Positions 1,188 through 12,524 of a stretch of 64,000 nt of DNA are shown here, piece by piece. The translations under genes were made by a program, and so were the position numbers. Source of the DNA: Devosia sp. Lineage in GTDB: Bacteria > Pseudomonadota > Alphaproteobacteria > Rhizobiales > Devosiaceae. Each line of letters starts with the position of its first letter. The first letter of the stretch is position 1. The stretch spans positions 1 through 64,000 of the forward strand of contig NZ_JAQGJV010000036.1 in the NCBI RefSeq assembly GCF_028290435.1, read 5' to 3'. Under the pieces are notes generated by a model. It worked only from the letters and a program-made list of their open reading frames with translations. It was not told the origin of the DNA and ran no database searches.

Positions 1188-3422
1188 CTAGGTATCAACA
1201 TCCTGAAAAATCTGGCCATCGGCTTTGTCCGGATTTCCGCCAGTCGCCTGCGACAGGATAGGGGTCCATGAAGGCCCATCATAAGACGGTTGCTGCGCTT
1301 CCAAATCTTCAATTCTAGAGTTCAGCTGGGCGTATAGATCGTCGAAGGCCTCGTCATCAGGCATGCCGAAATAATCTTGCGCCCGACGCATATTTTCCTT
1401 GAACCCGTTGTATAGGTCTAGCTCGTCGTCGGAGGAATATCTGCTAAATTCGTCGAACACATTGGGGATATCGGCCAACCATTCGTTGCGAAAGGCATCT
1501 TTGTAGTCCTCGAACTCCTTGTCAGACAAAATCTGCTGAAGAACTTCGTCGGTAAGCAGCTTTGAATCCAACCACGATATCGAATGATCGATAATGTAGT
1601 CGGCGATTTCCTTCCTCACGGGCTCCGGCAAAAGCCCCATCGAGGCAAGCGCCGCCACGAGCAACTTTCCGCCGAACGAGAAATGCCTTCTGGGTTTTTC
1701 TGCGATACATGCGAGGATGTCAGGTCGAGCATCAAGCATAAGGCTCAGGAACGACTTTTCGCAGCGCGCACCCAGAAACGCCATGAACGTTTCATCCAGC
1801 GGGTATTGTGCAAGCCGGGCGACGAGTGGCGAATATAGGATTGGGGGGATGCGCAATTGCGTGTCACTTTTGGACTTGGGTCGGCACACCACCTCATCCA
1901 GCAACCTGTCGAGTTTGGCGCCGTGTGCATAGAGTTCAATCAGTTCTGGTGATCCCCCCACCAGCGATGCGAACGCGTCGGTAACGGTCGGGTGACGGAA
2001 TATCCAGCGCTCGCCGTCCTCCTCCGAAACTAGCTTGGTGACGCTATCGTTCAGGTGCACCATAGCCTTGGCTATTTGGGCCGCATTGACGCCCATGAGG
2101 CGCGTGACCATGTCCAACGCGGACGACGCCGGAATGGGGGAAGGCACCCCGGTTTGGGAGTTCAGGAAAATCAGCGCGATCGCAGCACGGGAGTCGTCGT
2201 CAAGCTGCGCCAATATTTCTGTCAGGAACTCGACGGGATGCTCCACCAACTGCGTGAGACGCTGTTGGTTGATGGCCAGGTTCTTCGTGAAAATCGGATC
2301 ACCTAGTCGACGAGCGGTCTCAGGCAGGAATGCTGGGTTTGCCGCGACATCGGATAGGAAGGGCTTCAGGCGGCGCCTCATGTCGCGAGGCTGGGCGCGG
2401 CGAACGTGGTTGTAAAGCATCTGGGCTCTCTCTGCGTTCGAAAGGGCCTCTACGTTGACGACGACCTGGCTTTCCTTGAGCAGCGAGAATGCACTCGTCT
2501 TCAGATGAGGCTTGGCTGCTTCCCAGATATAGTTGCGCGAAGTGAAGACGACGCGTGCGCCATTTTCGACTGCGGCACGCAGGGTCCCTAACTCGGCATT
2601 CCATCGGCTCATGCGTGAGGCGTCGAAATGGTTGGGGCCAAATGCATCGTCGACCCAAAGAAATTGCTTTTCACCGGGGTGCCACAAATTCAGTTGGTCC
2701 GGCGAATTGATCTTGAGCGCTCCGAGACATCCATCGTCGATTGCCGCCAGCGCCAGGATTGCTGCAATCGTCGACTTCCCTGACGCCGGATCGCCAAGCA
2801 GGATAACAAAACGGTGCTCGTGGAGAGCCGTTACAGCGGCTCGGTATGCGTCTGTTCCTACAAAGCAGCTGAGGTCTGATCCCATGGAGTCCAGGATAGC
2901 CTTCGCTTGCTTGTACCCATGGCCAGTGATGATGTGGGCCAGGTCACCAATCCCGTATACCCGGGGAACCAGCATTCGGAGCCTGGCGCTCTCGGTGAGT
3001 TGCTGGACGATCCAAGTTCCGCCGAAAGTTCGGCACTTTTTGACCCCGACTTTTTCGAACGCCTTTCGGATTTGCGCATCGACCTCTCCGGACACGCCGG
3101 CGTTCGTGAGGACGATGTAGTCATCGGCCAGACCTTGTGCGGCCAGTTTCTTGGCTTTCGGCAGCTCGTCTTTCAGATCGGAAAGCGTGAGATTGGCGCC
3201 TGGCTTGCTCAAGAATTTGCACTGAATTGTCGAACGTCCGCTTCCGTCCGTTGCATCCCAGCGTCCCAAGAAAGCTGCGTCCCGGCCTCCATCATTCGAC
3301 CCCAGGAACGTTTGCACGGGACGCTTGAGAACCTCGGCTGTCACGGCAGCCGCCAAGTCCTGAAAGGCTTTCCAGCCAAGTTTGCTGAGGTCGTAGTCCA
3401 ATGATATGCCCTCCGCCGGCAT
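1188..3422 (-). CDS. Restriction-endonuclease-like domain fused to STAND-type P-loop ATPase
   Basis: A predicted defence-type protein of 744 residues. Residues 10-150 look like a restriction-endonuclease/Mrr-type fold: SNDGGRDAAFLG (about 42-53) gives the acidic residue, and STIQCKF (64-70) gives the QxK half of the PD-(D/E)xK site. An ATPase module follows, with Walker A GDPASGKS (210-217) and Walker B FLWVDDA (254-260), then a long helical region. This resembles the nSTAND3-type NTPases that carry N-terminal nuclease effectors. The start is uncertain: ATG 3422 is chosen because the domain begins right after it; an in-frame TTG at 3461 would add 13 residues. Neither has a clear ribosome binding site. 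It is transcribed divergently from the TIR gene. Role in antiphage defence is inferred from architecture. Confidence 0.78.
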   Translation of the reverse strand: MPAEGISLDYDLSKLGWKAFQDLAAAVTAEVLKRPVQTFLGSNDGGRDAAFLGRWDATDGSGRSTIQCKFLSKPGANLTLSDLKDELPKAKKLAAQGLADDYIVLTNAGVSGEVDAQIRKAFEKVGVKKCRTFGGTWIVQQLTESARLRMLVPRVYGIGDLAHIITGHGYKQAKAILDSMGSDLSCFVGTDAYRAAVTALHEHRFVILLGDPASGKSTIAAILALAAIDDGCLGALKINSPDQLNLWHPGEKQFLWVDDAFGPNHFDASRMSRWNAELGTLRAAVENGARVVFTSRNYIWEAAKPHLKTSAFSLLKESQVVVNVEALSNAERAQMLYNHVRRAQPRDMRRRLKPFLSDVAANPAFLPETARRLGDPIFTKNLAINQQRLTQLVEHPVEFLTEILAQLDDDSRAAIALIFLNSQTGVPSPIPASSALDMVTRLMGVNAAQIAKAMVHLNDSVTKLVSEEDGERWIFRHPTVTDAFASLVGGSPELIELYAHGAKLDRLLDEVVCRPKSKSDTQLRIPPILYSPLVARLAQYPLDETFMAFLGARCEKSFLSLMLDARPDILACIAEKPRRHFSFGGKLLVAALASMGLLPEPVRKEIADYIIDHSISWLDSKLLTDEVLQQILSDKEFEDYKDAFRNEWLADIPNVFDEFSRYSSDDELDLYNGFKENMRRAQDYFGMPDDEAFDDLYAQLNSRIEDLEAQQPSYDGPSWTPILSQATGGNPDKADGQIFQDVDT

Positions 3423-3622
3423 CGTGGCAAAAGAGCACGCGGCAGTCGAATCCGAGCCCAATTATTGGCTTGTACGAGATCTGATGGAATAGGCAAACTG
3501 CGGGCCAGCAATCTCTGCCTCTGCGATGGTGGCAAGAAACCCCCGCTCCGGCACCATTCGCGTGCCCTGCATCAACTTGCACGAGGTGATCCTGCCACCT
3601 ATGAAGGTAAAGCTTTCAATCC

Positions 3623-4666
3623 GTGGGTGTTCCGTTGGCAAAAACGACTGCAATTAAGATCTTCCTCAGTCACGCAGCGGCAGACCTGAAATTGGTGGAG
3701 GCCTTCGAGACGCTGCTCACCAAGGCATTAAACATCACGTCGGAGAGCATCTTTTGTTCAAGCCTAGAGGGTCAAGGGGCGACAAAAGGGAAGAGTTTCG
3801 TTGACCAGATCAAGGACGAGGCGATCGCAGCAGACGCCGTGGTCGCTCTAATTACGCCGGCCTACATGGAAAGTGCCTTCTGTTTGGCCGAACTCGGTGC
3901 CGCCTGGGTGCTGAACACCAATCGGTTCCCAATCGTTGTGCCACCTAACACATTCGAGGTTATGCAAGCCACGCTGCTCGGCGTCGTTGGGGTGAAGCTC
4001 GACAACGACGTCGCGATGTCGCAGTTGTTTGAAGACATAACGATTGCGCTGAAACTCCCACCGGCGAGGGCCGGCGTGATCGCCCGCGCGATGCGCAGTT
4101 TCACTGGCGAGTGGCCCGCCTTGCAGGGCAGTATTGGGGTCGCCAAGCGCGTGGATGCCGCCATCCACAACCAGACTCTTGCCGAGCTGAAGTCCGCCCG
4201 TGATGCCTGGGAGGCATCCGAACAGGATCTCGAGCATGCTAAGGCTCAGATTAGCGCGTTGAAAAAGACGAAGGACCCAGCAGAAGTTGCCAAGGTCAGC
4301 AAAGCTTTTAGCGAAACTGACTGGGAAATGGACCTGGACGCGGCGATCGCGGAGGTGGCCGACGTCGCAGGCGAAGTGGGTGGCAACCGAGTACTACGCC
4401 TTATGATACTCGACATTCTCAATAAGCCTTCCGCGCCGGATCTCAATGACGACTACATCTCGAGGGCGGTTGAGATCGGTGTCTACGATACCGAGGACAA
4501 AGATTGGATCCGTTCATCGGACGAGATGAAGAGCCTGCAGAAGGGCATGCGAAAAGTTGATGCAGTTTTCGAGGAGCACGCTGAGGCTGCCGCTGAACTG
4601 AAAAGACGTGGCAAGCGGGCCAATCCGAACGATATCCGCTTCTGGGAGGAGCACGTCGGCCTGTGA
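3623..4666 (+). CDS. TIR-domain protein with C-terminal helical region
   Basis: 347 residues. The N-terminal 140 or so form a TIR domain: the first strand is IKIFLSH (11-17), then DAVVALITPAYMES, and a putative catalytic glutamate occurs in FCLAELG (Glu90), as in NAD-degrading TIR enzymes. A heptad-rich segment around residues 185-215 (LAELKSARDAWEASEQDLEH) predicts a coiled coil, and the C-terminal 120 residues are helical without a family I know. The start is GTG 3623; a TTG at 3635 is possible. Bacterial TIR proteins commonly act as NAD+ hydrolases in abortive-infection systems or as signalling enzymes. The gene is divergent from the nuclease/STAND gene, with about 160-200 bases between starts, so the two may share a control region. 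Partnership is inferred. Confidence 0.82.
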   Translation: MGVPLAKTTAIKIFLSHAAADLKLVEAFETLLTKALNITSESIFCSSLEGQGATKGKSFVDQIKDEAIAADAVVALITPAYMESAFCLAELGAAWVLNTNRFPIVVPPNTFEVMQATLLGVVGVKLDNDVAMSQLFEDITIALKLPPARAGVIARAMRSFTGEWPALQGSIGVAKRVDAAIHNQTLAELKSARDAWEASEQDLEHAKAQISALKKTKDPAEVAKVSKAFSETDWEMDLDAAIAEVADVAGEVGGNRVLRLMILDILNKPSAPDLNDDYISRAVEIGVYDTEDKDWIRSSDEMKSLQKGMRKVDAVFEEHAEAAAELKRRGKRANPNDIRFWEEHVGL

Positions 4667-5460: not shown

Positions 5461-5848
5461 TCACGCCACAAGCTCAACGAACTCTTGCTGAAGAATGTCA
5501 CGTTCCTCATAGCGGTTTCGCATTCCCACACCTTCAACACTTGCCATCCTGCCTCGTCGAGTGCGACCGGTTTTCTTCGTCCCGCTCGACGTTGCGTCCG
5601 ATGTGAGCCCCAATAATGATCGATGGTTTTTGCCTGCCGCGCCCCGCGTTTGCAATTATGCCGTGCCAAAAACAACCATTGACGAAAACAGACGAACGCC
5701 GTCACGGCAACAGGAGATCGGGTGTGCCGGGTAGTTCCTTCTGGTATAGCCAGTATCTGGAGCCGAGGCCGGGTATGAGCCTGCAAAAGCCCTCTGGGAA
5801 ACAGTGTCCCTCGAACGGGCCGTCCGCGTGACCGCGCTACACAATACG
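5461..5848 (-). pseudogene. Frameshifted vsr (very-short-patch-repair endonuclease) copy
   Basis: Pieces of a Vsr protein can be read in three frames in the correct order, and match the intact Vsr encoded at 9537-9947. The pieces are RSRDT (near 5814-5800, compare KSKDT); RLIPGLGSRYWLYQKELPGT then PDLLLP, ending at a TGA near 5705; VFVNGCFWHG in the next frame; HNCKRGARQ after a further shift; and KVWECET near the end. The conserved FVNGCFWHGHNC core is therefore split by a frameshift. The piece begins right at the end of the GIY-YIG gene, exactly as in the intact module, so this is a full-length but dead copy rather than a fragment. At least three frame changes are needed to read it through. 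Confidence 0.85.
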
Positions 5849-6616
5849 CTAGTTTCCCCCGCTGTCGATCTCGTCTTCATTTTCCGGCCCGGCCTCAACG
5901 GACGCGTCGCCACCTACGCCTGCAAACCGTCGCTCTGCCAACCACTGCATGCGCTTTGTCTGTGTCAACAGTACACGTCTCAGCCCAGCATGTTTCAACT
6001 CGCGTTCTGAAATTACCTGGGCCAGCTTGGAAACGATTAGGGCACGTCGCGCTAGCCTCGTATCGGGATGTTCGCGTAGAACCCGCACCTCGGCGGAGAC
6101 AATTGATCCCCGGCGCGACTCTGGTTCCTGAATCTCCAGGTCGGAGGGCGGAGGATCTTTCTCATTAAGGATAGCTTTGAACCTACTCGCGTTCCTTAGG
6201 CGGGTGAAAACGGCCAGTTCTAAGGCGTTTAGGTACTCTTTAGCCAGCTTGGCTGACTCTTCATTGCCACCAATCCCCTCAAATTGAGGAAGCGGCCATA
6301 CCTCAATTTCGGAGACTTCGAACGGGTCTAACACGGACATTGCCACGGCGTCTGTACGCTGGTTAGTAAGGTGTCGACGAACCCGTCCGCTCAACCGTTC
6401 CTTTGTCTGGCCGACATAGATGGGTTCGCCATCGTAGTCATAGAACGCATAGACCCCCCACTTGAACCCTCCGACGTTCCGGTCGATTTTGTTCAAGTCG
6501 GGATACTGAATCTCTCGGAAAAATTTTTCAATCCCCTTGCGCAGCTCGTCCGTTTCCATTGGCGGCTTGCGAATAGCATCACCAACATCTTCTATTTTTT
6601 TTGTGTTTTTTGCCAC
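5849..6616 (-). CDS. GIY-YIG nuclease-domain protein (degraded module copy)
   Basis: 255 residues. Residues 52-82 carry the GIY-YIG core: WGVYAFYD (GIY strand), EPIYVGQT (YIG strand) and then SGRVRRHL, with the catalytic-type arginine. A downstream helix with KEYLNALELAV provides the expected glutamate region. The C-terminal part is basic and helical (around ERELKHAGLRRV). The start is GTG 6616, not the upstream ATG at 6673: the preceding codons in another frame are the remains of protein X, which ends at TGA 6621-6619. The protein is a divergent paralogue of the 192-residue GIY-YIG protein at 9931-10509. GIY-YIG domains include type II restriction enzymes such as Eco29kI. The methyltransferase partner is missing from this copy, so it may be a solitary or relic nuclease. 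Confidence 0.8.
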   Translation of the reverse strand: MAKNTKKIEDVGDAIRKPPMETDELRKGIEKFFREIQYPDLNKIDRNVGGFKWGVYAFYDYDGEPIYVGQTKERLSGRVRRHLTNQRTDAVAMSVLDPFEVSEIEVWPLPQFEGIGGNEESAKLAKEYLNALELAVFTRLRNASRFKAILNEKDPPPSDLEIQEPESRRGSIVSAEVRVLREHPDTRLARRALIVSKLAQVISERELKHAGLRRVLLTQTKRMQWLAERRFAGVGGDASVEAGPENEDEIDSGGN

Positions 6617-6618
6617 GG

Positions 6619-6720
6619 TCAGCCCCTCCGAATCGGAGTCATCCCCGACTCGATTTGGCTTACACCACCTCAAGTTACCGTGGTCTTACGCCACGTTACC
6701 ACGATAGAGCCGAGCGCGCG
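6619..6720 (-). pseudogene. C-terminal remnant of module protein X
   Basis: The minus strand reads SIVVTWRKTTVT, a stop, then GGVSQIESGMTPIRRG and TGA (6621-6619). The intact protein X at 10516-11373 ends RRKTTVTRGGIVQLESEM then TPIRRG. About 16 of the last 25 positions are identical, and one arginine codon has become TGA. Upstream of about 6720 the similarity is lost, so the rest of X and the methyltransferase gene were deleted from this copy. Confidence 0.85.
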
Positions 6721-6845
6721 ACGACCACCACAGGCTTATTGAGCGTCCCCAGCGATGGGATTCCGCCTGGGGGGTAGTTCCTACTGCGTCCGTTTCGGAT
6801 ACCTGGTTGCGATATTGCTATCGATCAGCCGCTGGTTCTAACGCG

Positions 6846-6869
6846 AAGGGCACCCGGTGGGGCCCTTTT
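6846..6869 (+). terminator. Possible intrinsic terminator
   Basis: Inverted repeat AAGGGC / GCCCTT with a 10-base loop, followed by a short T run on the plus strand. It follows a 28-codon ATG frame (6755-6841) ending in TAA that I cannot assign. The hairpin may end a lost transcript. The rest of 6721-6970 holds nothing else supportable. Confidence 0.4.
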
Positions 6870-6970
6870 GCGCTTGGAACTGCTCATGCCGGCGTAGCCA
6901 GCGGCACGAGCTTCCATTTTCTTTCCCGCCGTGGTCTTAGTCGATCAACAATGAATGTGGGGGGCCAATC

Positions 6971-8182
6971 ATGGCGGCTGTCGTAGACGCAACGCTGCTC
7001 TTTGACGAGCGGGTCAAGTGCTATTCCCTGATGACGTCGGTTAGCACAATAGACTACTTGAAGCTGGTGCAGGCTGCCTATGCCCAGCGTGGCGGCCTGC
7101 AGCACCAGCGTGATGCTCTGAAGACCACGACAGCCCGCCGCATCCGTGCCCGCATGGTGTCGGACGTACAGAAGGGTGCGATCCTGCCACCAGTGGTGAT
7201 TGGCGTGGTCGTCGACGATAACACACTCAACAACATTCCGAAAATGAAGCCATCAGAGGTGGTGGACTTGATCAGCGGTGCCCTGGTTGGCACCATTTCG
7301 ATCATCGACGGGATGCAGCGAACGACCGCGTTGCTAGCAGCATTGGACGGAGACAAGAAGGTCGCGGACTTTCCGATCCGTATCGAGTGCTGGATAGCCA
7401 AAAGCACCGACAGCCTAATCTACCGCATGCTGGTGCTCAACACGGGGCAAGTGCCTTGGAACCTGAGTCGGCAGCTCCAGGTGGTCTTCGCCCCGCTGAT
7501 CGTAGAGATGAAGAACCGCGTCAAATTTGAACGCATCCTCGACCCCGAGAAATCGGAGCGGCGCGCGAAGGCCGGTGAATATTCCCCGGACAGCCTGGTG
7601 GAACTGTACATCGCGTTTGGTCTCCGAAAAACGGACGTGGACACACAAGAAACCTTGGCCGATGAATTCTCCCGGCTGGACGTGACCGACGCCATCGCAG
7701 AAGACCGCTACAACCAGTTCTTCTATCCGGTGCTCCAGACGATGGTGGACCTTGATCAAGCCTTCTCGCGCCTCGACAACCAGATCGACGACGCCAAGGA
7801 GGATGCTCCGGCCCCGAATAGTTTGAAGGTGCTGAAGAAAGGCCGCAGCGTCTTCGATAGCCGCCCGGCGCGCATCGGCTACATCGTGTCGGCAGCGATC
7901 GCCATCCTGGGTCGTGTCGGTATGGAGAAGGACCCGGCCACCAGCCAGAAGCTGTTGACCGACCTGCAAGCGCAGGTGAAAGCGCTCTCCGATCGTTTAG
8001 CCCAATTGGACGTGAATCAGCTTACCGAATTCCTCAAACTGGACGTCCTCTCCGAGCGTCTTTACGGCCAGAAGCGCTCAGCGGTGGGACGGTATGAGCG
8101 CGCGTTCTTCGATTCTGCATTCAAAGTGCTCATCGAGGAGGGCTTCGAGGTGCCGAGCCTGGAGCCTGCGTGGCGAGTTTAA
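6971..8182 (+). CDS. DGQHR-like (DndB/ParB-like fold) domain protein
   Basis: 403 residues. Residues 111-122 read IIDGMQRTTALL, a variant of the DGQHR/DGQQR motif found in DndB-like and other ParB-related proteins of phosphorothioation, restriction and mobile-element loci. It sits in the expected context: an earlier strand LPPVVIGVVVDD, and a later segment YRMLVLNTGQVPWNLSR that corresponds to the (I/V)N-T-G-x-P block after the motif in this superfamily. The C-terminal 150 residues are helical. ATG 6971 is used; ATG 7031 (start of MTSVSTIDYL) is an alternative. It ends three bases before the next gene, so both form an operon, placed between two copies of a restriction-modification-type module. 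Biochemical role is unknown. Confidence 0.65.
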   Translation: MAAVVDATLLFDERVKCYSLMTSVSTIDYLKLVQAAYAQRGGLQHQRDALKTTTARRIRARMVSDVQKGAILPPVVIGVVVDDNTLNNIPKMKPSEVVDLISGALVGTISIIDGMQRTTALLAALDGDKKVADFPIRIECWIAKSTDSLIYRMLVLNTGQVPWNLSRQLQVVFAPLIVEMKNRVKFERILDPEKSERRAKAGEYSPDSLVELYIAFGLRKTDVDTQETLADEFSRLDVTDAIAEDRYNQFFYPVLQTMVDLDQAFSRLDNQIDDAKEDAPAPNSLKVLKKGRSVFDSRPARIGYIVSAAIAILGRVGMEKDPATSQKLLTDLQAQVKALSDRLAQLDVNQLTEFLKLDVLSERLYGQKRSAVGRYERAFFDSAFKVLIEEGFEVPSLEPAWRV

Positions 8183-8185
8183 GCC

Positions 8186-9322
8186 ATGGCCAATCGGAAC
8201 CGCAAGAAGATGAGCGCAGCGACGTTCAAGAAGCTGGTTGACCACGCGGCTGCCTATGGGACCGATATCGCCAACGCGGACAAGGTCCGCTGGATCAAGC
8301 GACTCCGCGATGAAGACGCCGAGCTTATGTCGAAGGCCGACGTGATCGATCGACGCAAGATCACTCGGCAGATGCGGGCGGTCCTGTTCGAGCATGAGGA
8401 TCGGCGCTTCGTCGCGTTCTTCGGCTTCGCTTCCGTCGACGACATGCCCAATGGTCTGCCCGAGGGGCTAACCGAGATTGAACTCACCCCCGGCACCTTC
8501 GGCATCTCGGTCACCGAGACCGAGGTCATGCCCCGCGCCACGGCCGCCGAGATCCGGGAGTTGATCGAGTCGGAATTCGAGGGTGTGGAGAACTACGAAG
8601 GCCATGAACTGCAGGCGATCCGAGACCTCTTCCCCCGCATCCTCATCGTTGAGGCGAGCGTCGATTTCACCTATACCTCCGACATCGACCGCGTGCTCGG
8701 CGCGATGGTTGCTGCAACCTACATCGACGGCCCGATCGCACTGAGCGAAGCCACGCTCAACGCCGCGTCTGAACTGTTTTCGTCGGGGTCCGAATACATC
8801 CCCTATCAGAATGTACTGCAAGGCGTTCTTTCCATCTATTGGGGCGGTTTCTTCGTCGACCTGTACCGTTGCGTGGAACAGCTCTATGCGGTGCCGCGGC
8901 TGCTCGACCTGACCAAGGATTGGTCCAGCAGCCGCTCGATCGCCGAGCTCGCCGACCTACTCGATAAGAGACTGGCCTGGCGTCCGCGCGAGGAGGAAGC
9001 GCTGATCAGGGTGATTGGCGGTTGTCCGTTGGCTACTGCGAAGAAGCTCATTTCTGCATTTGGAGGGAAGCTGGAGGAGACGAGCATTCCTGCAGACATC
9101 GCCGCCCGCCACGTCTACAACATGAGAAATGGCCTGGTGCACTTTCGTGGGGACACCAAGATCGCCCAGCCCACCGACGACCAATGGGATCAGATCATCC
9201 TCGCCATGATCGGGCTGGTGTCGGAGACCTATGCGGCATTCGGCAAGCAATACCATGTCGCAACGGCGATAGCGGCGCCGGCAATGCCGGTCCCCGCTGC
9301 ACCGGCAGCGGAGCCAGCGTGA
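8186..9322 (+). CDS. Hypothetical protein with HEPN-like RX4H motif
   Basis: 378 residues, no family recognised over the full length. The N-terminal half has a strand-rich segment around FEHEDRRFVAFFGFAS and FPRILIVEASVDFTY. The C-terminal part is helical and ends in HVYNMRNGLVHFRGD, in which R314-N-G-L-V-H319 matches the RX4-6H signature of HEPN domains (RNases or toxins of many defence and toxin-antitoxin systems; also Apea-like variants). It is followed by an alanine/proline-rich tail. The gene starts 3 bases after the DGQHR-like gene stop, so it is co-transcribed and probably translationally coupled. The HEPN assignment is an inference from one motif plus helical context; catalytic activity is unproven. 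Confidence 0.6.
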   Translation: MANRNRKKMSAATFKKLVDHAAAYGTDIANADKVRWIKRLRDEDAELMSKADVIDRRKITRQMRAVLFEHEDRRFVAFFGFASVDDMPNGLPEGLTEIELTPGTFGISVTETEVMPRATAAEIRELIESEFEGVENYEGHELQAIRDLFPRILIVEASVDFTYTSDIDRVLGAMVAATYIDGPIALSEATLNAASELFSSGSEYIPYQNVLQGVLSIYWGGFFVDLYRCVEQLYAVPRLLDLTKDWSSSRSIAELADLLDKRLAWRPREEEALIRVIGGCPLATAKKLISAFGGKLEETSIPADIAARHVYNMRNGLVHFRGDTKIAQPTDDQWDQIILAMIGLVSETYAAFGKQYHVATAIAAPAMPVPAAPAAEPA

Positions 9323-9536
9323 AATCCGCCGCCCGGCAAGGTAGAATTCGACATTAGCAAGCAAGAGACGACAGATGGGCGCTGCGTCGATGTGGCGCAA
9401 GGCGAGTGGTGGGACAGCAGGGGGACGGACATTCTGCCGAAGTCCGTCGTCACGTGTTTCTTGAGCAGAACCCAGACCTCGGCATTGTTGTTATCGAGGG
9501 CGACACCCCGGACTCGGACGGCCCGGTCGCCTACCA

Positions 9537-9947
9537 TTAGTCTAGGAACTCGCGCAGCTTGGCTGCCAGCGCTGGCCGATCGGCGACCTTCGTTTCACAC
9601 TCCCAGATCGTAACCACCCGCCAGCCCGCGCGAACTAAGGCAACGATGTTGCCGGCATCGCGATGGACATTTCGGGCAATCTTCGCCTTCCAGTAATCGC
9701 CGTTGGCCTTCGGCTGCCTGGCGCCCCGCTTGCAGTTGTGGCCATGCCAGAAGCATCCGTTGACGAAGATCACCTTTCTCCGGCCGGCGAACACCAAATC
9801 CGGCTTGCCCGGCAGGTCCTTGCCATGCAGACGGTATCGGTAGCCCATGCCATGGATGAGCCGACGCACGACCATCTCGGGCGTCGTGTCCTTTGACTTG
9901 ACCGCCCGCATGATGTCGCTGCGAAAGGGATCACTCTTCGGGAGCAT
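9537..9947 (-). CDS. vsr: Very short patch repair endonuclease (Vsr)
   Basis: 136 residues, the usual length of Vsr. Vsr nicks next to T:G mismatches that arise when 5-methylcytosine is deaminated, and so accompanies C5 methyltransferases. Visible family features are DPFRSDIMRAVKSKDTTPE at the N-terminus, GYRYRLHGKDLPGKPDLVF with the catalytic-type Asp50, FVNGCFWHGHNC (61-72) with the metal and catalytic His/Cys cluster, and WECET near the C-terminus. The start overlaps the end of the GIY-YIG gene by 17 bases, and it is the last gene of a four-gene minus-strand operon that begins with a C5 methyltransferase. All key residues are present, so the copy should be active, unlike the frameshifted copy at 5461-5848. 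Confidence 0.93.
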   Translation of the reverse strand: MLPKSDPFRSDIMRAVKSKDTTPEMVVRRLIHGMGYRYRLHGKDLPGKPDLVFAGRRKVIFVNGCFWHGHNCKRGARQPKANGDYWKAKIARNVHRDAGNIVALVRAGWRVVTIWECETKVADRPALAAKLREFLD

Positions 9948-10509
9948 CCTCGTCCGGCTCAGCGATACCGAGCAACCCGGCGTGATACTTTCTCAAGCGT
10001 TCGAAGTGGGCGTTCATCGCCCGGGCGACCTGTGTCGAATTCTTGACGGCGACGAAATGCCCAACGATCTGGGCGTAGTGGTCTGCCTGCCGCGGTAGAC
10101 GTTGCGTGGGATCCTTCTTCGAGACGATCTCGGCATCGGACATAACCTGCACCCTCTGTAAGGGCGTGGGAACCGGGATACCATCGTCCAGGAAGGCGGG
10201 CTGTGTGCCGTTCATCAACTGCGACTTCGGGTTGAAATGGTGGAAAAGCCTGGCCTCGAGAAGCCCTATCTGCAGCCTATCGGGTTCGGGGTAGGTCCAA
10301 ACGTAAGCAATCTCCCAGACGTCTATCTGCCGGTTGGCAATTATGTCGGAGCGAGCCGATGTAAGGTGACGAGCGACGCGCGACCGTATGCCCGCCTTGG
10401 ACTGCCCAACATAGATTGGAACCCCGTCGAGGTCGCATAGGACGTAGACCCCAATTTGGGCGGTGAGGCCTCGGACGGCCCGTTTCCTGAAGTCGAAATC
10501 CGTAGCCAC
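9931..10509 (-). CDS. GIY-YIG nuclease, predicted restriction endonuclease of the module
   Basis: 192 residues. The GIY-YIG core is near the N-terminus: QIGVYVLCD (19-27), VPIYVGQS (30-37), IRSRVARHL (41-49, catalytic-type Arg), and a helix LLEARLFHHFNP (83-94) with the expected glutamate and asparagine. The family includes type II restriction enzymes with a C5 methyltransferase partner (Eco29kI). The position two genes after a C5 methyltransferase and just before vsr suggests this is the cleaving component. It starts 6 bases after protein X and overlaps vsr. The remaining 90 residues are helical with no family I recognise. Alternative: an accessory nickase, with protein X as the true restriction enzyme. 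Confidence 0.82.
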   Translation of the reverse strand: MATDFDFRKRAVRGLTAQIGVYVLCDLDGVPIYVGQSKAGIRSRVARHLTSARSDIIANRQIDVWEIAYVWTYPEPDRLQIGLLEARLFHHFNPKSQLMNGTQPAFLDDGIPVPTPLQRVQVMSDAEIVSKKDPTQRLPRQADHYAQIVGHFVAVKNSTQVARAMNAHFERLRKYHAGLLGIAEPDEDAPEE

Positions 10510-10515
10510 CCGGCA

Positions 10516-11373
10516 CTACCCCCTACGTATCGGCGTCATCTCCGATTCGAGCTGGACTATACCTCCGCGCGTGACGGTAGTCTTCCGTCGGGTTTCGCCT
10601 CCCACTACCTCGATCTCGAAGTCCACAAAGTTGACCTCGTCATCCCTACCGCGAAAGCAGGTGTGGAACGCCTGCAACAGCGTCACGTCCTCTAGCTGCT
10701 GGGCGATCGCAATCGTCACCGCGCCGCCTGGTATGATGCCCGGGAACGAATATAAGCACGCAGGCGGTACGCGGAACGGGCCGACATCGGTCAGCCGTGG
10801 CTCCATCTCGCCCATGATCTTGGGACACGGCCGGCCGACCGTGCCGCAGACCATGTCCCAGATAATCACGCCGTCAACGCGCTGATCCCGAGAGATCATC
10901 TCCGCGCTGAGACGGGTGTGGATGCCGGACCACGCGTTGCGCCGGGGGTCGCCGGCGGCATTGGTCATCATGCTCCAGATGACGAACTCGTCGGCATCGA
11001 GGGGGCGTTGAAAGATCGTAGTATTCTGGCCGTCCATGGCCCCCGTCAGGCCTATTACGGCGTTCCTCCCACCCGGCATCTGCACCCAGTAGTCGTTGCG
11101 CTCGGAGGCCTCACTCAATTCCCAGCCCGAAATCAGCTTCTGATCCTCGAGGTGGTTGAGGATGTGTTGTACGAACTCGCGCTTCGGCCGAACGTCAGCG
11201 ATGAATTGACCACGGATGCGTTCAATCGCGCCCCTGAACAGGCCGGAGTTGTAGAATTCCTTATCATCCAGTCCGTGGTCGCCCAGCTCATGGGCATGGG
11301 TTTTCAACACTTCAGCGAACTTCTCGATCTGGCCGCGCAGGCCAGCGTTCTGTTCGCACGGAATGACACTCAT
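10516..11373 (-). CDS. Protein X of the methyltransferase-GIY-YIG-Vsr module, unknown function
   Basis: 285 residues beginning MSVIPCEQNAGLRGQI. The ATG at 11373-11371 overlaps the methyltransferase stop in an ATGA arrangement, which fixes the start and indicates translational coupling; a longer frame extends upstream only because it runs inside the methyltransferase gene. I do not recognise the family. The first 120 residues look helical and charged, with a winged-helix-like segment (KREFVQHILNHLEDQKLISG). The second half is strand-rich with conserved-looking RVDGVIIWDMVCG and KTTVTRGGIV. It may be a restriction subunit, a DNA-recognition protein or a control element. A C-terminal remnant of a second copy sits at 6619-6720, again directly before a GIY-YIG gene, so the association is recurrent. 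Confidence 0.8.
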   Translation of the reverse strand: MSVIPCEQNAGLRGQIEKFAEVLKTHAHELGDHGLDDKEFYNSGLFRGAIERIRGQFIADVRPKREFVQHILNHLEDQKLISGWELSEASERNDYWVQMPGGRNAVIGLTGAMDGQNTTIFQRPLDADEFVIWSMMTNAAGDPRRNAWSGIHTRLSAEMISRDQRVDGVIIWDMVCGTVGRPCPKIMGEMEPRLTDVGPFRVPPACLYSFPGIIPGGAVTIAIAQQLEDVTLLQAFHTCFRGRDDEVNFVDFEIEVVGGETRRKTTVTRGGIVQLESEMTPIRRG

Positions 11374-12524
11374 GCAGCGGCGGCGTCCTTGGCCCTCAGG
11401 CGCTGCAGCAAGGGTTCGATCAAATGCTGGGCTAAGTGCCTCACCACCGGCACGGCTACGCCGTCGCCGGTCAAGTGGTAGGCCTCGTTGTAGTTCTTGG
11501 GTAAGATGTAATGGTCGTCGAGCCCCATTAAACGGGCAGTCTCGCGGGACGAAATCAGGCGCGAGCGGACGCGATCGCCATCGACGACAACGATGACCTG
11601 GCGGGATGAACCACCGGCTGGCGTGCGGAGGCACCCGGCAAGATCGTCAAACCGGATCTCAGCGCGTTGATGCTTGACGCCCTCTTCCACGCGCGTGCGC
11701 CTATAGACCGCTCCGACCATACGACGGCCGGCGCGCTTTGCGGCATCTAGCTTGGCTTTATTGACGGACGACATCTGCCCCAGCAGCTTCGCTGTCTCGA
11801 TCGAGGTATGCCACTGCACGCTCTCCGGCTTGTCTTCAACCAGGTCGGCGAACACGGTGGTGCGGTGGGGCGGCGTGGGCATATTCCACCAGAGCCACTT
11901 GGACTTGGCCGAGTCGTTTACTCGATCGTAGGCCGCTTGCAGGCCCCGCGTATGGAAGGGCTCGATTGGACCTGGCGAGACCATCGTGTCGTCGACTTCG
12001 ACGTTGTCGCGCACGCCCACAATGAACAAGCGAGGGCGCGAATGGGGAACGAACAGCGCCGCGTCGATCACTAGCGCGCCGTAGCGATAGCCGTTATCGG
12101 CGAAGGTTTGGCAGATGGCTTCGAAGTCCATACCGCCATGGGACGTTAAAGTGCCGGTCACATTTTCAAGAGCCACGACGCGGGGCGCACGGTTCTCGCT
12201 GATCAGCAGCTTGACGATGTCCCAGAAGGGATAGAACGTTCCCGAGCGCTCACCGCGCAGTCCGGCACCGCCACCAGCCAGCGACAAATCCTGGCAAGGA
12301 AACGATGCCCATGCAAGGTCGGCGACACCGGGCAGCTCAGTAGTCTCGACCTTGCGGATGTCGCCAATCTTCAGAACGCCCGGCACCCCCCAATTGTCTT
12401 GATAGGTCAGACCCTTCTTGAAGTCGAAGTCGTTGGAGAACGCGCACTTCCATCCCCCGCCCAAGCCTGCTCGCGCCATCCCGCCACCGGCGAAAAACTC
12501 ATAAAAGCTGGGCTTGTCCTTCAT
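11370..12524 (-). CDS. DNA (cytosine-5-)-methyltransferase
   Basis: 384 residues. Motif I is FYEFFAGGGMARAGLG (SAM binding). Motif IV is ASFPCQDLSLAG, with the catalytic Cys77 in the PCQ loop. Motif VI is ALENVTG (Glu120), and motif VIII-like SRPRLFIVGVRD follows. The C-terminus has SSRETARLMGLDDHYILP and then the GDGVAVPVVRHLA block typical of motifs IX-X. It methylates cytosine at C5 in a specific DNA site, which both protects host DNA and creates the deamination risk that Vsr repairs. ATG 12524 is chosen, with GGGGA just upstream; an in-frame TTG at 12536 is possible. It is the first gene of the operon methyltransferase, X, GIY-YIG, vsr. Recognition sequence cannot be read from the sequence alone. 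Confidence 0.95.
   Translation of the reverse strand: MKDKPSFYEFFAGGGMARAGLGGGWKCAFSNDFDFKKGLTYQDNWGVPGVLKIGDIRKVETTELPGVADLAWASFPCQDLSLAGGGAGLRGERSGTFYPFWDIVKLLISENRAPRVVALENVTGTLTSHGGMDFEAICQTFADNGYRYGALVIDAALFVPHSRPRLFIVGVRDNVEVDDTMVSPGPIEPFHTRGLQAAYDRVNDSAKSKWLWWNMPTPPHRTTVFADLVEDKPESVQWHTSIETAKLLGQMSSVNKAKLDAAKRAGRRMVGAVYRRTRVEEGVKHQRAEIRFDDLAGCLRTPAGGSSRQVIVVVDGDRVRSRLISSRETARLMGLDDHYILPKNYNEAYHLTGDGVAVPVVRHLAQHLIEPLLQRLRAKDAAAA

Follow-up and report, generated by a model that had tools for sequence, protein, structure and literature searches.

A KasI-like methyltransferase with two possible alternative nucleases in a Devosia restriction-modification locus and its neighboring remnant

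According to the accessible portion of the report on the Burkholderia phage AH2, its genes gp35-gp32 form a "DNA protection and repair module" in which gp34 is 64% identical to KasI and gp35 is 63-66% identical to M.KasI and other methylases (PMC3483164). In the same portion, the GIY-YIG protein gp33 is presented as an excinuclease with a possible role in excision repair and is not called a restriction nuclease (PMC3483164). GIY-YIG nucleases are also represented among type II restriction enzymes, namely by Eco29kI, Cfr42I, Hpy188I, and DraR1 in the accessible parts of two reports (PMC4081073, PMC10855626). We analyzed 64,000 nucleotides from Devosia sp. (RefSeq assembly GCF_028290435.1, contig NZ_JAQGJV010000036.1, positions 1 to 64,000; hereafter the window), which encode, in this order on the minus strand, a C5-cytosine DNA methyltransferase (M), a protein referred to here as X, a GIY-YIG nuclease, and a Vsr mismatch endonuclease. 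AH2 has M-X-GIY-YIG-Vsr in identical order, its X (gp34) and GIY-YIG proteins being 55 and 63% identical to those of the window, so the four-gene set is already in print; the new part is the likely role of the GIY-YIG gene. Sequence comparisons suggest that one M probably serves two alternative, unrelated nucleases, X and GIY-YIG, and that GIY-YIG displaces X and has taken over cutting in the lineage of the window.

The intact module occupies positions 9537-12524 and comprises the following features:

11370-12524, minus strand: M, a C5-cytosine DNA methyltransferase (Pfam PF00145, 2.7e-44; NCBIfam dcm; PADLOC DruM2, 4.8e-166)
10516-11373, minus strand: X, a restriction endonuclease relative, KasI-like via phage AH2 gp34 and predicted to be catalytically dead (PADLOC REase_II PDLC03501, 4.7e-112; family alignments; AH2 paper)
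11044-11094, minus strand: predicted PD-(D/E)XK site in X (D94 retained; family E108-x-K110 replaced by G108-L-T110)
9931-10509, minus strand: GIY-YIG nuclease of the short lineage, 192 amino acids, GTG start (Pfam PF01541, 6.3e-06, above the gathering score)
9537-9947, minus strand: Vsr mismatch endonuclease (TIGR00632, 146.6 bits against a cut-off of 97.85)

M and X overlap by 4 bp, as they also do in 11 of 15 loci compared, GIY-YIG and Vsr overlap by 17 bp, and only a few bases separate the X stop from the GIY-YIG start in the window and in locus L003. M and X are 84 and 81% identical, respectively, to their Faunimonas counterparts at the amino acid level; the GIY-YIG protein of Faunimonas belongs to the other (long) lineage, and the window Vsr reaches 213 bits against contig L061 and a lower 193 bits against Faunimonas. 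The set is best read as a putative type II restriction-modification system to which the repair enzyme Vsr has been added. M would methylate host sites, GIY-YIG would cut unmethylated foreign DNA at M target sites in place of X, and Vsr would repair T:G mismatches arising from deaminated 5-methylcytosine, while X would persist although its catalytic acid and lysine are lost. Targets are known to be shared among restriction enzymes with unrelated folds; that of KasI, from the Kluyvera ascorbata restriction-modification system, is GGCGCC.

An earlier, sequence-only reading of this DNA had left X as an unknown and missed the loss of its motif. X matched no Pfam or NCBIfam family; its PADLOC match and gp34 identify it as a restriction endonuclease relative, and the link to KasI runs only through gp34. 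D94 is invariant in 56 X sequences, and the (E/D)xK family motif lies at residues 108-110. Among 58 X representatives, this motif reads ExK in 46, DLK in nine, DLN in one (locus L064), ALT in one (Faunimonas, the closest relative), and GLT in one (the window). Two structure models of X were built, from 15 sequences (predicted local distance difference test score, pLDDT, 75) and from 37 sequences (pLDDT 88.6); in the second, D94 opens one strand and residues 104-110 form the next, consistent with a PD-(D/E)XK site. We infer that the window X is catalytically dead, having apparently lost its original cutting site. The motif-less X is nevertheless under purifying selection and not drifting, because between the window and Faunimonas the proportion of nonsynonymous differences (pN, 0.127) is far below that of synonymous differences (pS, 0.69); the corresponding corrected distances are dN 0.139 and dS 1.9, the latter near saturation, and M gives pN 0.101 and pS 0.73.

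GIY-YIG is present with all 12 non-ExK X representatives, compared with 7 of the 46 ExK representatives, although 11 of the 39 ExK representatives scored without GIY-YIG have <1 kb of sequence on one side, where a GIY-YIG gene could escape. One of the seven (L078) keeps ELK, and all that it has of GIY-YIG is a broken remnant lying 2.3 kb downstream. In eight loci with GIY-YIG, X has a changed site, is broken, or is missing: the window (GLT), Faunimonas (ALT), L064 (DLN), L030 (X split into two frames), L033 (IS256 between the X halves), and L102, L104, and L121 (X absent). The intact GIY-YIG protein of the window has Y22, Y33, R44, H48, E85, and N100, the active-site residues of this fold, and the same six are kept in 66 of 66 GIY-YIG rows scoring >150 bits (36 distinct). 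We infer that the GIY-YIG protein would cleave DNA, and would do so at the sequence methylated by M.

The distribution of these genes was surveyed in 397 genomes of the host's order (the order sample; GIY-YIG family at E<=1e-8, M at E<=1e-80), on plasmids, and on viral contigs. Because the genome searches score few candidates per genome (up to seven in the GIY-YIG search and four in the M search), absences in them are not proof. In the order sample, the GIY-YIG family occupies 12 places in 10 genomes, comprising six with M and X, four with M but lacking X (G111, G156, G165, and G208), the window remnant described below, and one fragment. X has 10 full places, six of them with GIY-YIG, and M has 32 places in 27 genomes, with X and GIY-YIG at six, X at four, and GIY-YIG at four. 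The GIY-YIG family tracks the methyltransferase and not X or Vsr, since 10 of its 12 places adjoin M, four of them without X. M and GIY-YIG without X also occur at plasmid loci of Mesorhizobium, Polaromonas, Mycobacterium, Arthrobacter, and Curtobacterium, and at five further loci on viral contigs (L108-L112); tblastn with two X proteins returned nothing at E<=0.1 in L101-L105 and L121-L125. M is found in 11 of 15 viral-contig GIY-YIG loci, and three of the remaining four are truncated where the contig ends. Further plasmid matches to the GIY-YIG family were seen in H25 (Haladaptatus) and H47 (Rhodococcus).

Most loci are built around M-X, with Vsr and GIY-YIG each optional. The module is real and recurrent, as the sequence-only reading had supposed, with all four genes in AH2 and with M, X, and GIY-YIG at six places of the order sample. 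Its view of X, GIY-YIG, and Vsr as one working unit finds no support as stated, given the optional genes and the methyltransferase clusters with GIY-YIG and no X (14 of 71, below); the GIY-only loci likewise rule out, as a general rule, GIY-YIG as an obligate partner of X or Vsr.

In a phylogenetic tree of 71 M clusters, 39 have X only, 18 have X and GIY-YIG, and 14 have GIY-YIG only, with at least 12 changes of nuclease state. Because these clusters were gathered by X and GIY-YIG searches, their counts cannot be read as frequencies; bias is smaller in the order sample, whose M-only loci are not on the tree. The GIY-only rows are scattered, three of them falling inside the 19-row clade of the window (99/99), and L102, with GIY-YIG and without X, is the sister of the window and Faunimonas (100/99). 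Overall, four states were found: X alone, both nucleases, both with X altered or broken (as in the window), and GIY-YIG alone. The M recognition region, which we assume to be bounded by motifs VIII and IX, is 40-58% identical to that of the window in X-only rows and 42-67% identical in 10 of the 14 GIY-only rows, and because it aligns across these two groups, one common target would be expected for the main M group.

GIY-YIG proteins fall into two lineages, a short one (the intact window copy) and a long one (the window remnant), with about 30% identity between the two and, within each, 54-80% identity to the window copy. Near-identical M-X pairs (X 91% identical) can carry different lineages: in Sphingomonas MEA3-1 (L028) the gene is short and upstream, and in L086 it is long and divergently oriented. 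Because lineages and positions differ beside such near-identical pairs, and because Faunimonas and the window are mismatched in lineage, the GIY-YIG gene changes hands more freely than M-X does.

A second set of related genes, also on the minus strand, lies at 5480-6696:

6622-6696, minus strand: remnant X tail, the last 25 codons, with one in-frame TGA (76% identical to intact X, tblastn E 7e-8)
5849-6616, minus strand: remnant GIY-YIG gene of the long lineage, open frame, active-site residues kept (32% identity with the intact copy across 151 amino acids, E 1e-15)
about 5480-5832 (limits approximate), minus strand: decayed vsr with a stop and frameshifting gaps (51% identical over 74 amino acids, E 3e-19)

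The sequence-only reading had recognized the minus-strand order X, GIY-YIG, vsr both here and, intact and with M, at 9537-11373, and had described the relic as keeping an open GIY-YIG gene, quite diverged from the intact one, beside a broken vsr; all of this holds, and the similarity of the two regions extends beyond GIY-YIG to the X tail and vsr. The exact match that it reported at the end of X is correct for KTTVT and TPIRRG and does not apply to the whole tail, which has an extra in-frame TGA directly after KTTVT. As a copy the remnant is also incomplete, for likeness to X ends at 6696, leaving only the tail, and no methyltransferase is present in 5480-6696. In the closest relative found, contig L061/L106, the X tail, GIY-YIG, and vsr align with the remnant as a single block (67.6%, 1193 columns, E 2e-166), so the conserved gene order is far beyond chance. 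Between the old duplication and the independent arrivals that had been left as alternatives, the latter are indicated: the two modules are separate arrivals, because their GIY-YIG copies belong to two old lineages, each with closer relatives elsewhere (the intact copy is 75% identical to that of L028 and the remnant copy 79.5% identical to that of L061), which rules out local duplication of the module.

By reading of the L106 alignment, vsr has at least four frameshifting gaps as well as a stop, and the X tail has a single stop; no lesion is seen in the 768 bp of the GIY-YIG gene. If the rate of six lesions per 455 bp held there too, the gene should contain about 10 (P about 4e-5, a rough figure that assumes equal exposure). 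Nonsynonymous distances (dN) to three other long-lineage members, given for the remnant GIY-YIG and L106, respectively, are 0.278/0.241, 0.345/0.271, and 0.407/0.408. Because its frame is free of lesions amid decay and its dN equals or somewhat exceeds the L106 value, the GIY-YIG gene of the remnant is perhaps still maintained, possibly under weaker constraint. We read 5480-6696 as best explained by the leftover of another module of this kind, acquired separately and equipped with the other GIY-YIG lineage, in which only GIY-YIG is still open; possibly, an older module was replaced by an incoming one, which would explain a remnant beside an intact module.

Several observations weigh against the displacement of X by GIY-YIG. 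The 12 non-ExK rows form one clade in the X tree (100/99), indicating a single origin of motif loss, so the correlation between motif loss and GIY-YIG is not independent evidence; a Fisher test (p 5.7e-8) ignores this shared ancestry, and repeated independent loss cannot be claimed, since the independent pairs number only 1-2 (starred branches). That tree left out L016 and L061 (X <250 amino acids) and 95% near-copies, and included L030 and L033 as the N-terminal piece only. The association is suggestive, and would represent one event rather than statistical proof. In addition, DLK, found in 9 of the 12 non-ExK rows, may be a working PD-(D/E)XK site, and at six loci ELK is found alongside a GIY-YIG gene that looks whole, so that the two nucleases coexist. 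In L016, which has M and Vsr matches, X (5968-6762) lost its predicted catalytic region by an in-frame deletion, and no GIY-YIG was found around it within 11.9 kb of sequence. Neither nuclease is found at 18 of the 32 M places of the order sample, a count that for five of them (L156, L164, L165, L168, and L169) is that of the genome searches. The viral-contig GIY-YIG relative L120 (87 bits) has no M within 7.6 kb of sequence, a distant relative of X (27%) lies some 7 kb away from M on the L121 plasmid, and four deep GIY-only M (three on actinobacterial plasmids, one on contig L112) are only 25-32% identical to that of the window in the recognition region. Structural comparisons also lend no help: the GIY-YIG family profile found no solved GIY-YIG restriction enzyme (Eco29kI, Hpy188I) among PDB sequences and only UvrC (E 0.74-0.94), and PDB sequence searches with X and the X profile gave nothing relevant. 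Foldseek returned nothing significant for the first X model, the best matches being SfsA (E 0.037), AvaII (0.15), and EcoO109I (0.17), with acetyl-CoA carboxylase ranked among them, and no clear PD-(D/E)XK match for the second (best E 0.076, Tk-TIP26).

Other explanations give GIY-YIG or X a different part. The dead X may be kept under selection as a specificity or regulatory partner of GIY-YIG, with the system mid-way through a nuclease swap that would run from active X alone, through both nucleases and dead X with GIY-YIG, to GIY-YIG alone; we regard this as possible and somewhat doubtful. That X and GIY-YIG form a split enzyme, with specificity from the dead X and catalysis from GIY-YIG, is unlikely: the conservation of the motif-less X between the window and Faunimonas and the closeness of the X stop to the GIY-YIG start in the window and L003 would fit, but the 14 of 71 M clusters with GIY-YIG only indicate that GIY-YIG needs no X in those loci, and its position and orientation vary between loci.

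It is likewise improbable that restriction falls to X, with GIY-YIG serving as a helper in repair, either of Vsr or of the nucleotide excision pathway, as the accessible portion of the AH2 paper itself proposes for gp33 (PMC3483164). AH2 has the same order with Vsr, GIY-YIG stands directly before Vsr in several loci, and UvrC provides the only solved sequences matched, although weakly; against this, no Vsr match was found in 8 of 14 GIY-only rows within the sequence examined (in one of them, L109, the contig breaks off), 16 of the 39 X representatives that lack GIY-YIG have Vsr, and the eight loci listed above have GIY-YIG with an altered, broken, or absent X. We give still less credence to the view that GIY-YIG has no restriction role and is a nuclease gene, selfish or hitch-hiking, that accumulates in defense loci. 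The two lineages do swap, at different positions, between near-identical M-X pairs such as those of L028 and L086, but the adjoining of M at most order-sample and viral-contig places and the overlap of M and GIY-YIG genes in several GIY-only loci argue otherwise. The reading in which GIY-YIG displaces X beside a common M therefore remains the one that we consider probable.

Some relatives of these proteins lie outside this scheme. Distant X relatives occur on the plasmids L084 and L085 (both 27% identical) and at L078:8201-8848, with IIQKG in the motif region of L084 and L078. Next after the L084 gene come a ParB-like gene and a DEAD/DEAH helicase, and after that of L085 an unnamed gene and a helicase; relatives of this type apparently belong to a different system. 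At L159:3104-4039 and L162:3175-4125, an unrelated protein of 311-316 amino acids directly follows a KasI-like M, at the spot of X or GIY-YIG, and is possibly a third alternative nuclease. KasI-like M without X or the GIY-YIG family occur in L157, L158, L160, L161, and L163, with Vsr adjoining some (L157, L161), and these are possible orphan methyltransferases.

Between and beside the two modules of the window are further genes:

6971-9322, plus strand: Dazbog-like gene pair between the two modules (first gene PADLOC DzbA, 3e-43; the second, 378 amino acids, had no match to any Pfam, PADLOC, or NCBIfam family within the limits applied)
1188-3461, minus strand: nSTAND3 NTPase protein, PDC-S73-like, a defense-island neighbor
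3623-4666, plus strand: TIR-domain protein, spbK-like, a defense-island neighbor

To our knowledge, few visible intermediates are known for one nuclease replacing another beside the same methyltransferase, and in the open-access literature we found no description of GIY-YIG displacing a KasI-like enzyme. Because the different states coexist in close relatives, how one nuclease replaces another, what a dead restriction enzyme does, and the specificity of a GIY-YIG family now annotated as "nuclease" or "excinuclease" are all testable by ordinary cloning. In comparison with AH2, which shares the order of the four genes, the difference lies in X, where AH2 retains ELK and the window has GLT. As for KasI, M and X form a tight operon in the window and X is linked to KasI only through gp34; the window X is without the E-x-K of the X family. 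The window Vsr resembles those of other restriction-modification systems, being above the TIGR00632 cut-off and in an operon with a C5 methyltransferase, with nothing unusual. With Eco29kI, Cfr42I, Hpy188I, and DraR1, as described in the accessible parts of the sources, the locus shares the pairing of a GIY-YIG nuclease with a methyltransferase and the Y, Y, R, H, E, N pattern; it differs in having no profile match to the solved structures and in the partner, which here is a KasI-like M, often also with X.

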